Assembly (NCBI GenBank): GCA_015655375.1
Contig: JAATFD010000043.1
Span: 1-64,000 of the forward strand
DNA length: 64,000 bases
Source of the DNA: Actinomycetales bacterium
GTDB lineage: Bacteria; Actinomycetota; Actinomycetes; Actinomycetales; Actinomycetaceae
Reading direction: 5' to 3'
Shown: positions 27,341 to 30,599 of the stretch, piece after piece
Numbering within the stretch: the stretch's first letter is position 1
Layout: each line of letters begins with the position of its first letter
Notes under the pieces: model-generated
Told to the model about the DNA's origin: nothing
Database searches by the model: none
The model's input: the letters and a program-made list of their open reading frames with translations, nothing else
Translations under genes and position numbers: made by a program

Positions 27341-28684
27341 ATGGCCCCACACCGCGTCGTCATCATCGGATCCGGCTTCGGAGGGCTGTTCGCCGCACAA
27401 TCGCTGGCACGCAGCGATGTCGAGATCACCCTGATTGCACGGACGAGCCACCACCTCTTCCAGCCGCTGCTCTACCAGGTCGCGACGGGCATCCTCTCCG
27501 AGGGCGAGATCGCCCCGACGACACGCGAGATCCTGCGCGGGCAAAGCAACATCCACGTCCTGCAGGGACTGGTCGAGGACATCGACACGGACCAACGCCT
27601 CGTCAAGTGGCGCAATCACAACGATGCCCATGAGACTCCCTACGACACCGTCATCGTCGCCGCAGGAGCCGGACAGTCCTATTTCGGCAACGACCAGTTC
27701 TCCACCTTCGCGCCCGGCATGAAGACCGTCGACGATGCCCTGGAACTGAGGGCCCGTATCTTCGGTGCCTTCGAGCAGGCCGAGATCGAGACCGATCCCC
27801 AGCGCACTGCCGAGCTGTTGACCTTCGTCGTGGTCGGCGGGGGGCCGACCGGAGTCGAGATGGCCGGTCAGATCCGGGAACTCGCCTCGCACACACTGCG
27901 CGGCGAGTTCCGGACCTTCGATCCTTCCTCTGCCAGAGTGATTCTGGTCGACGGCGCCGAACACCCACTGACAGCCTTCGGTCAGAAGCTCGGTGAGACC
28001 ACCCGCGCGGCACTGACAAAGCTCGGCGTCGAGGTCCGCTCGACGTCCGTCGTCACCGACGTCGACGAGTGCTCCGTCACCGTGAGTACCCCCGAGGGCA
28101 ACACCGAGCGAATCCCCTGCGTCTGCAAGGTCTGGGCAGCCGGGGTCTCCGGTTCACCGCTCGGCAAGGTCATCACCGACCACACGGGAACCGAACTCGA
28201 CCGCTCCGGCCGCGTCGTCGTGGATCTCGACCTGACGGTGCCGGGCCATCCGGAGATCTTCGTCATCGGCGACCTCATGTCAGTTCCCGATGTCCCGGGA
28301 GTCGCCCAGGGCGCCATCCAATCGGCACGCTTCGTGTCCGCGATCATTGATGCCCGGGTCAAGGGCACCACTCCCAAGCGCACAGAGTTCACTTACCACG
28401 ACAAGGGCTCCATGGCGACCATCGCCCGTTTCAAGGCCGTCGTCAGCATCGGCGAGAAATTCAAGCTGACCGGTTTTCCGGCCTGGATCGCCTGGTGTTT
28501 CCTGCATTTGATCTACATCGTGGGGTTCAAGGCCCGGATAGGCACGCTCGTCCATTGGTTCATCAGCTTCTTGTCCAACGCTCGTTCCGAGCAGACGAAC
28601 ACGAACCAGCAGATGGTCGGGCGCCTGGCTCTCGAGAAACTCGGTGCCGGCTCCTCCGGCCGTCTGGTCGCCGGCGAGGAGTGA
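27341..28684 (+). CDS. ndh: Type II NADH dehydrogenase (NAD(P)/FAD-dependent oxidoreductase)
   Basis: 447 residues. Non-proton-pumping NADH:quinone reductase on the inner membrane face. The N-terminal VIIGSGFGGLFAAQSL (FAD) and VVVGGGPTGVEMAGQI (NADH, about residue 165) dinucleotide folds, FVIGDL for the FAD, and the C-terminal amphipathic region with AWCFLHLIYIVGFKARI, which anchors NDH-2 to the membrane, are all visible. GAAGA precedes ATG 27341. No complex I genes occur in the window. Confidence 0.92.
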   Translation: MAPHRVVIIGSGFGGLFAAQSLARSDVEITLIARTSHHLFQPLLYQVATGILSEGEIAPTTREILRGQSNIHVLQGLVEDIDTDQRLVKWRNHNDAHETPYDTVIVAAGAGQSYFGNDQFSTFAPGMKTVDDALELRARIFGAFEQAEIETDPQRTAELLTFVVVGGGPTGVEMAGQIRELASHTLRGEFRTFDPSSARVILVDGAEHPLTAFGQKLGETTRAALTKLGVEVRSTSVVTDVDECSVTVSTPEGNTERIPCVCKVWAAGVSGSPLGKVITDHTGTELDRSGRVVVDLDLTVPGHPEIFVIGDLMSVPDVPGVAQGAIQSARFVSAIIDARVKGTTPKRTEFTYHDKGSMATIARFKAVVSIGEKFKLTGFPAWIAWCFLHLIYIVGFKARIGTLVHWFISFLSNARSEQTNTNQQMVGRLALEKLGAGSSGRLVAGEE

Positions 28685-28742
28685 GCGGATCCGCGTCGCA
28701 CACCCGACAGCCCCGAAGTGGCATCCCCTGCTGCCGGGCTGT

Positions 28743-28748
28743 TACAGT
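28743..28748 (+). promoter_or_regulatory. -10 box driving the ABC-F transcript
   Basis: TACAGT ends exactly seven bases before an ATG at 28756. This is the same geometry as the other leaderless promoters here, so the predicted transcript begins at that ATG, 83 bases before the ABC-F start codon. It follows a possible hairpin (28707-28713 with 28736-28742) after ndh. Confidence 0.5.
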
Positions 28749-28755
28749 CTCAAAC

Positions 28756-28767
28756 ATGCGTCTCTGA
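28756..28767 (+). CDS. Three-codon leader ORF (Met-Arg-Leu-stop) before the ABC-F gene
   Basis: ATG CGT CTC TGA begins at the predicted transcription start. It is far too short to encode a functional protein and would act through ribosome position or stalling. Met-Arg-Leu is the start of the MRLR segment known from macrolide-arrested Erm leader peptides. Here a stop codon occupies the position after Leu. Its role in control of the downstream gene is inferred. Confidence 0.4.
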   Translation: MRL

Positions 28768-28776
28768 GTCGATTCC

Positions 28777-28814
28777 CTCCCAATCCGCGCGGCAGCGCTC
28801 TGCCCCGGTGGGAG
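28777..28814 (+). promoter_or_regulatory. Nested stem-loop between the leader ORF and the ABC-F gene
   Basis: CTCCCA (28777-28782) pairs with TGGGAG (28809-28814), enclosing GGCAG (28791-28795) pairing with CTGCC (28800-28804) around a four-base loop. It begins ten bases after the leader stop and ends 24 bases before the ABC-F start. A ribosome halted on the leader could change its folding. Attenuator function is inferred. Confidence 0.4.
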
Positions 28815-28838
28815 CCACCTCGATGTCGAAGGCCACTC

Positions 28839-30599
28839 ATGGACCATGTTCCCCTTTCCTCTTCGGCCGACTCCCCGCTGACCCATGTCCGCGTCGATGG
28901 CCTCTCCGTCTCCTTCGGTACCCGGCGTGTGCTCACCGATGTCTCCCTGATCGCTCCCGCTCGGCAACGCATCGGTCTGATCGGCGAGAACGGCTCCGGA
29001 AAATCGACCTTGCTCGCCGTCATCGCCGGGATGATCTCGCCTGACTCCGGCACCGTCGTGGTCTCCGGTCCCGATGGATGGGCCCCCCGGGTCGGTCTGC
29101 TCAGTCAGGAGATCGATCTTCCCGCCAAGCTCAGCGTCGCCCGCATTCTCGACGAGGCCGAGGCACCTGCACGCATCGCCCGCGAGGCAGTCACTGCGAC
29201 GGCCGATGCCGTCGCAGTGGACCCGGATGATCCACGGGCTGCGTCAGCCTACGATCAGGCACTCGAGAATGCGGAGAGACTGTCGGCATGGGACGGTGAC
29301 ACACGACGAGAGCGGCTGATGGGCGGCCTGGGGCTGGCGGGGCTCCCCCGCGATCGTCCATGTGGTCAGCTGTCGGGTGGGCAACGCTCACGCCTCGCCC
29401 TGGCCTGCCTCCTCCTGACGGCACCCGACGTCCTCCTCCTCGACGAGCCGACCAACCATCTCGACGACCGGGCCACCGCCTATCTGCGCAGCCTGCTCGG
29501 TAGGTGGCCGGGTCCGGTCCTCTTCGCCAGCCACGACCGGGCCTTCCTCGACGAGGTCGCGACGTCCTTGATCGACCTCGACCCATCTCCTCTGCCCCAA
29601 TCGGTGGCCGGACCGCTCACCGGAGAGGGTCCGGGTTCCGGCATCGGCGTCACGAAGTTCTCCGGGGCCTACACCGACTATCTGGCGGATCATCTCGACG
29701 CCCAGGAGCGCTGGGAACATCGGTATCACGATGAGCAGCAGGAGCTCAAGCGTCTGCGTGCCTCGGTCCGCGATTCACACACCGTCGGGCACGTTGACCG
29801 GGGGCCGCGCACCGAGAGTCGGGCGTCGATCAAGTTCTACGCCGACCGCAACGCGCGCGTCGTCTCCCGTCGCGTTGACGACGCCCGGACCCGTCTGCAG
29901 AACCTGCAGGGCGCACAGATCCGCAAGCCTCCGGCCGATCTGTGGTTCCGCGGACTGGACGCTGCGACCGAGGATCACCACGACAGAGCCGGGTCGAACC
30001 CCGGGAGCGCTGCCACGACTCTGATCCAGGCCACGGAGGTCGCGCTCACGGGCAGGTTGGCTCCGACCTCTCTGACGATCTGCTCGGGAGAGCGGTGGCT
30101 GATCACCGGGCCCAACGGTTCGGGCAAGTCGACACTGCTGGCCGTCCTGGACGAAATCCTGTCTCCCACTGACGGAACCATCGAGCGCGCTCCCCGGACC
30201 CGAATCGGTCTGCTGGCTCAGGAGACCACCATCCCGGATCCCGCAGATCGAGGTCCTTCCCGCAGCGCAGAACAGGTATGGGACGACGTCCTGGGTGCTG
30301 AGCGTGGCCATGCCGTCCCGCTGGCGTCCTTCGGCCTGCTCCATCCACGCGATCTCAACCGACCGTTGGAGGTCCTCAGCGTCGGTCAACAGCGCCGATT
30401 CTCCCTGGCCCTTGTCCTGGCGGATCCACCGGATGTCCTGATGCTCGACGAGCCGACGAACCATTTCTCGCTCCTGTTGGTCACCCAGATCGAGGCCTCG
30501 ATCCCCGACTACCCGGGTGCCGTCATCGTCGCCTCCCACGACCGGTGGCTCAGACGGACCTGGAGCGGCGATCGGCTCGAACTGTCGGAGCGACCATGA
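28839..30599 (+). CDS. ABC-F subfamily ATPase, probable ribosome-protection type
   Basis: 586 residues, two ABC domains in one chain and no membrane segments. Domain 1: GENGSGKST, LSGGQRSRLAL, LLDEPTNHLD. Domain 2: GPNGSGKST, LSVGQQRRFSL and LDEPTNHF (about residues 420-560). The long interdomain arm (about residues 270-370) includes the KFYADRNARVVSRR...QIRKPP segment seen in actinobacterial antibiotic-resistance-type ABC-F proteins, which dislodge drugs from the ribosome. The ATG at 28839, with GAAGG seven bases upstream, starts just before the first ABC fold. A leader ORF and stem-loop precede it. Confidence 0.85.
   Translation: MDHVPLSSSADSPLTHVRVDGLSVSFGTRRVLTDVSLIAPARQRIGLIGENGSGKSTLLAVIAGMISPDSGTVVVSGPDGWAPRVGLLSQEIDLPAKLSVARILDEAEAPARIAREAVTATADAVAVDPDDPRAASAYDQALENAERLSAWDGDTRRERLMGGLGLAGLPRDRPCGQLSGGQRSRLALACLLLTAPDVLLLDEPTNHLDDRATAYLRSLLGRWPGPVLFASHDRAFLDEVATSLIDLDPSPLPQSVAGPLTGEGPGSGIGVTKFSGAYTDYLADHLDAQERWEHRYHDEQQELKRLRASVRDSHTVGHVDRGPRTESRASIKFYADRNARVVSRRVDDARTRLQNLQGAQIRKPPADLWFRGLDAATEDHHDRAGSNPGSAATTLIQATEVALTGRLAPTSLTICSGERWLITGPNGSGKSTLLAVLDEILSPTDGTIERAPRTRIGLLAQETTIPDPADRGPSRSAEQVWDDVLGAERGHAVPLASFGLLHPRDLNRPLEVLSVGQQRRFSLALVLADPPDVLMLDEPTNHFSLLLVTQIEASIPDYPGAVIVASHDRWLRRTWSGDRLELSERP

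Follow-up and report, generated by a model that had tools for sequence, protein, structure and literature searches.

The leader of an ABC-F ATPase gene in an actinomycete genome probably functions as a minimal antibiotic-responsive attenuator, in which a leaderless upstream open reading frame (uORF) of three codons and a helix, P1, would control ABC-F translation; we give this reading a probability of about two in three. The gene lies in a window of 64,000 nucleotides, the whole stretch of DNA analyzed (G+C content ~66%), from a source genome of 2.77 Mb in 53 contigs. The evidence is comparative and concerns the length, position, and promoter spacing of the uORF, together with the cognate pairing and covariation of P1 and of a central hairpin, P2. 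The locus contains the following features.

27341-28684: dehydrogenase-like gene upstream of the ABC-F gene (NCBIfam matches all far under cut-off)
28707-28742, + strand: inverted repeat ACAGCCC...GGGCTGT, 3' of the dehydrogenase-like gene and adjoining the -10 hexamer (from the sequence)
28743-28748, + strand: TACAGT, putative -10 hexamer (from the sequence), 7 nt (28749-28755) before the uORF start
28756-28767, + strand: uORF ATGCGTCTCTGA, ATG CGT CTC TGA, Met-Arg-Leu-stop (direct reading); predicted to be leaderless
28756-28769, + strand: 5' arm of candidate helix P1a (AUG, GUCU, UGAGU), from a fold of the leader with 12 nt of coding sequence
28835-28847, + strand: 3' arm of candidate helix P1a, with the ABC-F start codon inside; partner of 28756-28769 in the same fold
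28768-28772 with 28820-28824, + strand: alternative helix P1b, its 3' arm (28820-28824) just 5' of the Shine-Dalgarno sequence, in the minimum-energy fold of 28756-28868
28777-28814, + strand: central hairpin P2 (several folds and a 31-row alignment)
28829-28832, + strand: AAGG, possible ABC-F Shine-Dalgarno sequence, 6 nt before ATG 28839 (from the sequence)
28839-30599, + strand: ABC-F ATPase gene, 586 aa, probably of ribosome-protection type (NCBIfam profiles below cut-off)

The Leader and the ABC-F Gene

The interval between the dehydrogenase-like gene and the ABC-F gene is 154 bases long. A sequence-only reading had picked out in it TACAGT, a gap of seven bases, ATG CGT CTC TGA, a nested stem-loop, and an ABC-F start at 28839; these coordinates are correct, and the stem-loop (P2) folds as it was described, with two folds in agreement (28777-28782 with 28809-28814, 28785-28787 with 28806-28808, and 28791-28795 with 28800-28804). 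The transcript is predicted, solely from the -10 spacing, to start at the A of ATG 28756. A consensus scan found no sigma-70 consensus promoter in 28640-28900, and a search with 4227 Rfam models at E values up to 1 gave no matches in 28600-29000. The inverted repeat at 28707-28742 abuts the -10 hexamer, and a possible terminator there may overlap the promoter.

The open ABC-F frame extends farther upstream, where the sole other in-frame ATG, GTG, or TTG within 297 bases 5' of 28839 is GTG 28644, inside the upstream gene. The best NCBIfam profile of the protein is NF000171 (TlrC/CarA/OleB/SrmB), at 367.2 bits against a cut-off of 800 that is not reached, followed by NF000355 (ribosomal protection-like ABC-F), at 295.2 bits and below its cut-off of 380; these sub-threshold matches suggest that the protein is probably of the ribosome-protection/resistance type. 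Among its sequence relatives with solved structures are EttA and several resistance factors, whose deposited names are ExpZ, PoxtA, "lincosamide-streptogramin A resistance protein," and "macrolide efflux protein."

Recurrence of the Three-Codon uORF

ABC-F loci were gathered from the genus (35 genomes; threshold 1e-60), the family (213 genomes; 1e-110), and the order (1e-90), with the source genome counted in both genus and family, and their upstream regions were oriented. This gave 127 loci, 123 of them usable; L004, L020, L021, and L038 were dropped because their matched part begins within the gene or at the end of a contig. A script assigned the ABC-F starts, and errors in some of them are possible. 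The strict form of the architecture is defined as TANNNT, 6-7 nt, a start codon, two codons, and a stop, at most 250 nt upstream of the ABC-F gene.

The strict form is present in 89 of the 123 loci, against 0.07 expected (first-order Markov model, 100 rounds, maximum 1); it is absent from the reverse complement of the 123 upstream regions and from the upstream regions of 30 genes for the housekeeping ABC-F EttA (30 fetched of 59 found). At the two strict gaps most start codons lead into a frame of exactly three codons: 49 of 58 at gap 6 from the hexamer and 40 of 45 at gap 7, among the 123 loci. Frames of two, four, and six codons are present there in one, five, and one loci, and frames of zero, one, or five codons in none. 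At gaps 9, 14, and 15, where start codons are also numerous, the ORFs are mostly long.

The 89 strict loci span nine of 11 families and 24 of 39 genera (24 of the loci come from a single genus, in family f11), and their uORFs comprise 46 distinct 12-mers and 28 distinct peptides (35 if a GTG start is written as Val). The distance from uORF to ABC-F start is 48-90 nt in 81 of the 89, and 39 leaders are 48-58 nt long. The strict form also precedes a second ABC-F group of the window's genus, 36-41% identical, with the peptides MDS, MIA, MAS, and MFT. Because length is kept while 28 peptides occur, we conclude that selection acts on the length of the uORF and much less on its sequence.

In the source genome, the pattern TANNNT-N6/7-RTG-N6-TGA occurs at seven places, against six for the reversed pattern, and a stop-free frame of more than 450 nt overlaps each of the seven, the one in the window among them, so that surroundings did not separate the window copy from the others. 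The window copy alone thus proves nothing, and it is recurrence in relatives that lifts it above chance; judged by that recurrence, the architecture is not a chance arrangement. The sequence-only reading had proposed a three-codon uORF at leaderless spacing before the ABC-F gene and had named loss of this leader ORF from relatives as grounds for abandoning the idea; both length and place are kept (89 of 123 ABC-F loci). One of the other six matches, L264 (C40:13162-13185), is followed 34 nt behind by the start of a 246-aa ORF and may be due to chance.

Pairing of the uORF with the ABC-F Start Region

In several lineages the uORF and the few bases that follow its stop codon hold sequence complementary to the start region of the ABC-F gene at the same locus, and the complementary letters differ between lineages: GAUCAGC with GCUGAUC in family f11, GACCUGCC with GGCAGGUC in family f13, GACAUAAUGC with GCAUUAUGUC in the second ABC-F group of the window's genus, UCCUUGAA with UUCAAGGA at L034, and AUGUUCCU with AGGAACAU at L031. 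This pairing, P1, was evaluated from the duplex that transcript nt 1-24 form with the start region (-24 to +12), comparing cognate with randomly dealt partners. Loci with a doubtful ABC-F start or a very short leader were omitted (L006 from the 88-locus duplex test; L005, L006, L124, and L125 from the 85-locus helix and masking tests).

Cognate duplexes average -17.96 kcal/mol, against -13.47 ± 0.32 for permuted partners (n = 88), the lowest of 20,000 permutations reaching -14.75; when letters are shuffled within each of the 88 loci, the mean is -12.90 kcal/mol. The difference persists with one locus per genus and peptide (n = 53; -17.54 versus -13.09 ± 0.40), with family f11 removed from that thinned set (n = 42; -17.02 versus -12.94 ± 0.45), and within the window-type orthologs of the family alone (n = 17; -15.36 versus -12.42 ± 0.66; fraction of permutations as low, 0.0001). 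The signal per locus is modest: the cognate partner is best in nine of 88 rows, its median rank is 11.5, and eight of 88 loci have energies below the 1% point of letter shuffles. The mean length of the longest Watson-Crick helix is 5.96 bp, compared with 4.58 ± 0.11 when permuted; helices of at least 7 bp occur in 35 of 85 loci, against 5.9. If G-U pairs are allowed, the helix begins most often within the stop codon, at its second base, nt 11 (28 of 85). In 47 loci with long loops, the loop bases pair less with the start region (mean 4.0 versus 5.4), a comparison in which the loop stretch is often shorter than the 24 nt it is set against.

With nt 1-16 masked, the ABC-F start region has a mean unpaired probability of 0.51 over the 85 loci, up from 0.35 without a mask and compared with 0.40 for a 16-nt mask in the loop. 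The gain exceeds 0.1 in 55 loci, against 20 with the control mask, and is 0.1 or less in the other 30.

Alignments offer a second view of P1. Two of these, A1 (31 window-like leaders) and A3 (21 short leaders of family f11), were chosen by length and shared register, so that the constancy of the uORF start and stop in both follows from how they were chosen; a third, A2, combines 34 short leaders in mixed registers. The pair counts come from A1 and A3. RNAalifold proposes P1 unprompted in the 21 f11 leaders, where 97.4% of P1 cells pair. The named f11 structure, with both helices, is paired in 85.7% of cells, against 23-38% when slid, and holds 11 both-side changes, against 4.9 in shuffles. In this f11 comparison, six of the nine P1 pairs are invariant, the outer helix is paired in only 64.8% of cells, and two of five measures lie within the shuffles. 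The number of both-side-changed pairs (four against 2.7, a value reached by 100 of 500 shuffles) and that of pair types (142 of 500) are unremarkable. Run on the whole of A1, RNAalifold returns part of P2 and no P1, which we attribute to differences in P1 register among these leaders; the partner-permutation test was used for this reason.

The window's own P1 is among the weaker ones, with two competing pairings, and the claim for the window rests on the family and not on its own fold. Folded with 12 coding bases, the window leader forms P1a, in which UGAGU (28765-28769) pairs with ACUCA (28835-28839), flanked by GUCU/GGAC and AUG/CAU; with 30 coding bases, P1b is preferred, and the Shine-Dalgarno sequence pairs with 28860-28863 in the coding region. 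The cognate duplex of the window (-14.2 kcal/mol) is seventh best of 53 possible partners, the fold z-score (-0.61) is no outlier, and masking nt 1-16 raises accessibility from 0.41 to 0.46.

Hairpin P2 and Possible Transcription Attenuation

The structure of P2 was named by eye from rows of the alignment that was then counted, which favors it over slid versions. Within that limit, the 31 window-like leaders keep the order outer stem, bulge, CCG-N-GGC...GCC-CGG, outer stem; P2 cells are paired in 87.7% of cases, against 33-50% when slid, both-side changes number 29, against 8.8 in shuffles, and covariation is 0.252, against 0.124. The sequence-only reading had made this hairpin the element that a stalled ribosome alters. 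Its conservation in window-like leaders is borne out, with covariation, but a role as the switch is not supported: it lies inside the longer P1 helix, and RNAalifold finds no hairpin in the loop of the 21 short f11 leaders. Since it is lacking there, P2 looks like an accessory of the longer leader form, and on these comparisons P1 is the better candidate for the switch.

The main rival explanation, which we consider unlikely, gives P2 a different part: P2 would terminate or pause transcription, and ribosome stalling at the uORF would favor read-through, as in vmlR, msrD, and lmrC. Transcription attenuation is known for several ABC-F leaders, in cplR alongside translation attenuation according to the account in PMC10201436, and the conservation and covariation of P2 would suit it. 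Against it, a scan of 28640-28900 found no intrinsic terminators, 39 of the 89 leaders are only 48-58 nt long, and the 21 f11 leaders have P1 and no loop hairpin. A U-less or Rho-dependent stop in the leader is possible. P2 as an intrinsic terminator was itself rejected, there being none in the window by the scan and five or more T in the 8 nt after P2 in only two of the 31 rows.

Peptide Variation and Drug Specificity

Erm-type macrolide arrest peptides such as ErmDL (MRLR) carry an Arg-Leu-Arg motif, and the sequence-only reading had carried this logic over to the window, so that nascent Met-Arg-Leu would stall a macrolide-bound ribosome. In favor of such a peptide-specific sensor, residues that are bulky or basic predominate at codon 2 (W 20, L 19, R 15, K 9, D 8, I 6, S 5, F 4, T 2, and A 1 among the 89 uORFs, with Gly, Pro, Val, and Glu absent), and the nearest profile of the ABC-F protein, TlrC/CarA/OleB/SrmB, is of macrolide-producer type. 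That profile scores 367 against a cut-off of 800, however; the stop follows Leu directly, so that the second Arg of the motif is absent; and MRL occurs in only nine of the 89 loci, the window and eight in one genus of family f11, with 27 other peptides elsewhere. The Erm analogy is thus not supported, a macrolide-specific MRL peptide was rejected as a general rule in view of the 28 peptides in 89 loci, and a sensor of this kind is improbable.

Trp occupies codon 2 in 20 of the 89 uORFs, from 11 genera and five families, compared with 1.4% Trp in the ABC-F and dehydrogenase proteins of the window together. In view of this bias the peptide should not be dismissed as meaningless; possible causes of the bias are drug context, RNA pairing, or a combination of the two.

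Two further explanations dispense with drug sensing. A 5'-terminal AUG with a quick stop could be a constitutive device, that is, a ribosome landing site or an RNA-stabilizing site, and leaderless mRNAs are reported to be common in mycobacteria (PMC4633059). This is improbable to a similar degree, as the strict form precedes none of the 30 EttA genes, and the exact length of the uORF and its pairing with the start of the downstream gene point to a switch. Chance, or shared ancestry without function, could appeal to the seven genome matches against six reversed, to the relatedness of loci within a genus, and to the 24 of 89 loci from one f11 genus, but is already disfavored and very remote, given that length is kept over 46 12-mers, 28 peptides, and 24 genera and that the cognate-pairing excess survives thinning to one locus per genus and peptide.

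Comparison with Known ABC-F Leaders

Short uORFs of three or four codons before ABC-F genes are already described. One of the closest comparisons is vmlR of Bacillus subtilis, whose uORF MIN is supported by toeprint and mutation, with variants in other Bacilli of which MDN, MDK, and MRK were tested (PMC9226507). As here, a three-codon uORF precedes an ABC-F gene, stalling on it is proposed to alter the leader RNA, and the ABC-F Shine-Dalgarno sequence is partly hidden by a hairpin (PMC9226507). In contrast to the present leaders, vmlR is described with a Shine-Dalgarno sequence before the uORF, a 219-nt leader, and an intrinsic terminator with an antiterminator (PMC9226507), whereas here the spacing is leaderless, the leaders are mostly short, no U-run terminator was found, and the uORF/stop bases are themselves partners of the ABC-F start region.

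The uORFs MR[I/M] of cplR (by prediction and start-codon mutation), MK[L/Q] of vmlR2 (by prediction), and MAGN of lsaA are similarly of three or four codons (PMC10201436). For cplR, the same source describes translation attenuation with a sequestered Shine-Dalgarno sequence together with transcription attenuation, and a reporter that is inactive without the uORF start codon; cplR differs in belonging to Bacillota and in having a 212-nt upstream region with a terminator (PMC10201436).

Among actinobacteria, the are5sc and tiaA leaders of Streptomyces coelicolor have been described, and the three-codon are5sc uORF, MLV, is shown by toeprint, with a stall at or just after the start codon (PMC12421871). 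It differs from the uORF described here in having a ribosome-binding site, a TTG start, a 232-nt leader, and a predicted terminator with an antiterminator, and in being conserved enough for detection by uORF4u (PMC12421871). Leaderless uORFs that act as sensors in an actinobacterium are represented by leuL, trpL, ilvL, and others in Streptomyces lividans; unlike the present uORF, these amino-acid leaders have 12-29 residues in the examples quoted, contain regulatory amino-acid codons, and are not drug sensors (PMC8079986).

The mark of the vmlR/cplR/are5sc kind of leader, a short conserved uORF before a resistance-type ABC-F gene, is present in 89 of the 123 loci, the resistance type of the protein being judged from profile matches below cut-off. 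The intrinsic terminator found in vmlR, lmrC, and cplR and predicted in are5sc, a usual and not strictly defining part, was not found here. Three codons as such are thus already known, from longer leaders (vmlR, cplR, are5sc); it is the leaderless form of an ABC-F uORF of which we found no description in the open-licence literature.

Proposed Mechanism

The preferred reading, translational control by the leaderless uORF and P1, would operate as follows; the transcription start, uORF translation, stalling, induction, and the inducing drugs are predictions of the model. Transcription from the A of ATG 28756 would give a leaderless mRNA, and a ribosome would load directly on its 5' end. P1, which joins the uORF/post-stop bases to the ABC-F ribosome-binding and start region, would close over P2 in window-like leaders. 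Without drug, the ribosome would read two more codons, meet the stop at the edge of P1, and leave; P1 would re-form and ABC-F translation would stay low. A drug holding the ribosome at or just after the start codon would keep about nt 1-16 covered, blocking P1 and allowing the ABC-F gene to be translated.

For vmlR, toeprinting of a 30S subunit placed on the start codon of the uORF gave a signal 16 nt 3' of the A (PMC9226507), and a ribosome at the start codon of the present uORF would by that measure cover most of the 5' arm of P1. A stop placed at the helix edge would explain the three-codon length and why the peptide may vary. The conservation of length over sequence would also fit drugs that arrest the ribosome on the start codon or immediately beyond it, in line with the are5sc toeprint and the vmlR proposal.

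A stronger form of this reading is tentative and slightly more apt to fail than to hold. In it, leaderless initiation would itself be the sensor in a widespread actinobacterial class: the message would be peptide-free, a ribosome parked on the first 16 bases of a leader of ~50 nt; the length of three codons would be set by the distance from the 5' end to the helix, whose first base is often in the stop codon of the uORF; and any start-codon-trapping drug would open the gene, whatever the peptide. For vmlR, however, uORF identity is described as crucial for efficient lincomycin induction (PMC10201436), an effect that a purely positional model does not predict and that therefore argues against one; together with the Trp bias it speaks against the "whatever the peptide" part.

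If the preferred mechanism holds, a drug sensor can consist of 12 coding bases and one helix and needs no uORF Shine-Dalgarno sequence, no terminator, and no long arrest peptide. Resistance-type ABC-F genes that are probably inducible could then be recognized from sequence in many actinobacterial genera, and the role of leaderless initiation under drug would be testable with one short RNA.

Variants and Limits of the Architecture

The 34 loci without the exact form comprise nine with three codons at gap 5 or 8-11, 15 with two or four codons, and 10 with none. Four of the last ten (L183, L192, L194, and L200) have, by eye, a three-codon frame behind an imperfect hexamer, so that 89 is a low count. 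The exceptions include much of two families. Eight of the 10 loci of family f19 (L161, L166, L168, L169, L171, L172, L174, and L179) carry the two-codon frame ATG AAG stop at a gap of 9-10; in some of them, by eye, a GGUGUGC farther along is a potential partner of the post-stop bases GUGAGUACACACC, which may represent a more elaborate form. Family f17 (14 loci) has the strict form once and three codons at gap 9-10 in six loci, a spacing that would put a few bases ahead of the start codon. Two of its loci, L144 and L145 (genus g66), have an A-rich box upstream of the ABC-F gene and no uORF visible by eye, and are possible secondary losses.

Outside the order, the strict form is absent from the 21 loci examined of 61 class-level matches. 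Seven of these 21 have, by eye, a three-codon frame (MKL, MEL, MLI, and MDS); in six the gap is 9-10, and in one the hexamer lacks the final T. In large-genome family f35, another layout recurs by eye, GGTCTCGATGTC... with GCATCGAGGCCCACCC...GAAGGGTGG or close variants (L213, L214, L219, L221, L222, L223, and L225), and no three-codon uORF was seen in these loci by eye.

A scan of named genomes gave 80 distant loci, with best identities of 41-45%, and a loose form (gap 5-11, two to four codons) in 10 of them. Nine of the 10 are non-actinobacterial, the exception being L041 (Catellatospora, MKL, gap 9); the loose form is weak evidence because its matches lie mostly outside actinobacteria. At L045 (Arthrobacter), ATG AAG TCC TAA is seen by eye behind CAGGCT.

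Promoter and WhiB7

Promoters activated by WhiB7 (PMC3905903) provide a comparison class for an AT triplet upstream of the -10 hexamer. The window promoter has no AT triplet at the WhiB7-like position, and the source genome has four WhiB-type genes, in whose products no AT-hook was seen by eye. Of the 89 strict loci, 54 have an AT triplet 27-35 bases before the -10 hexamer, against four to eight at five control offsets, which suggests a WhiB7-like box, and with it WhiB7-like input, at many of the relatives rather than at the window.
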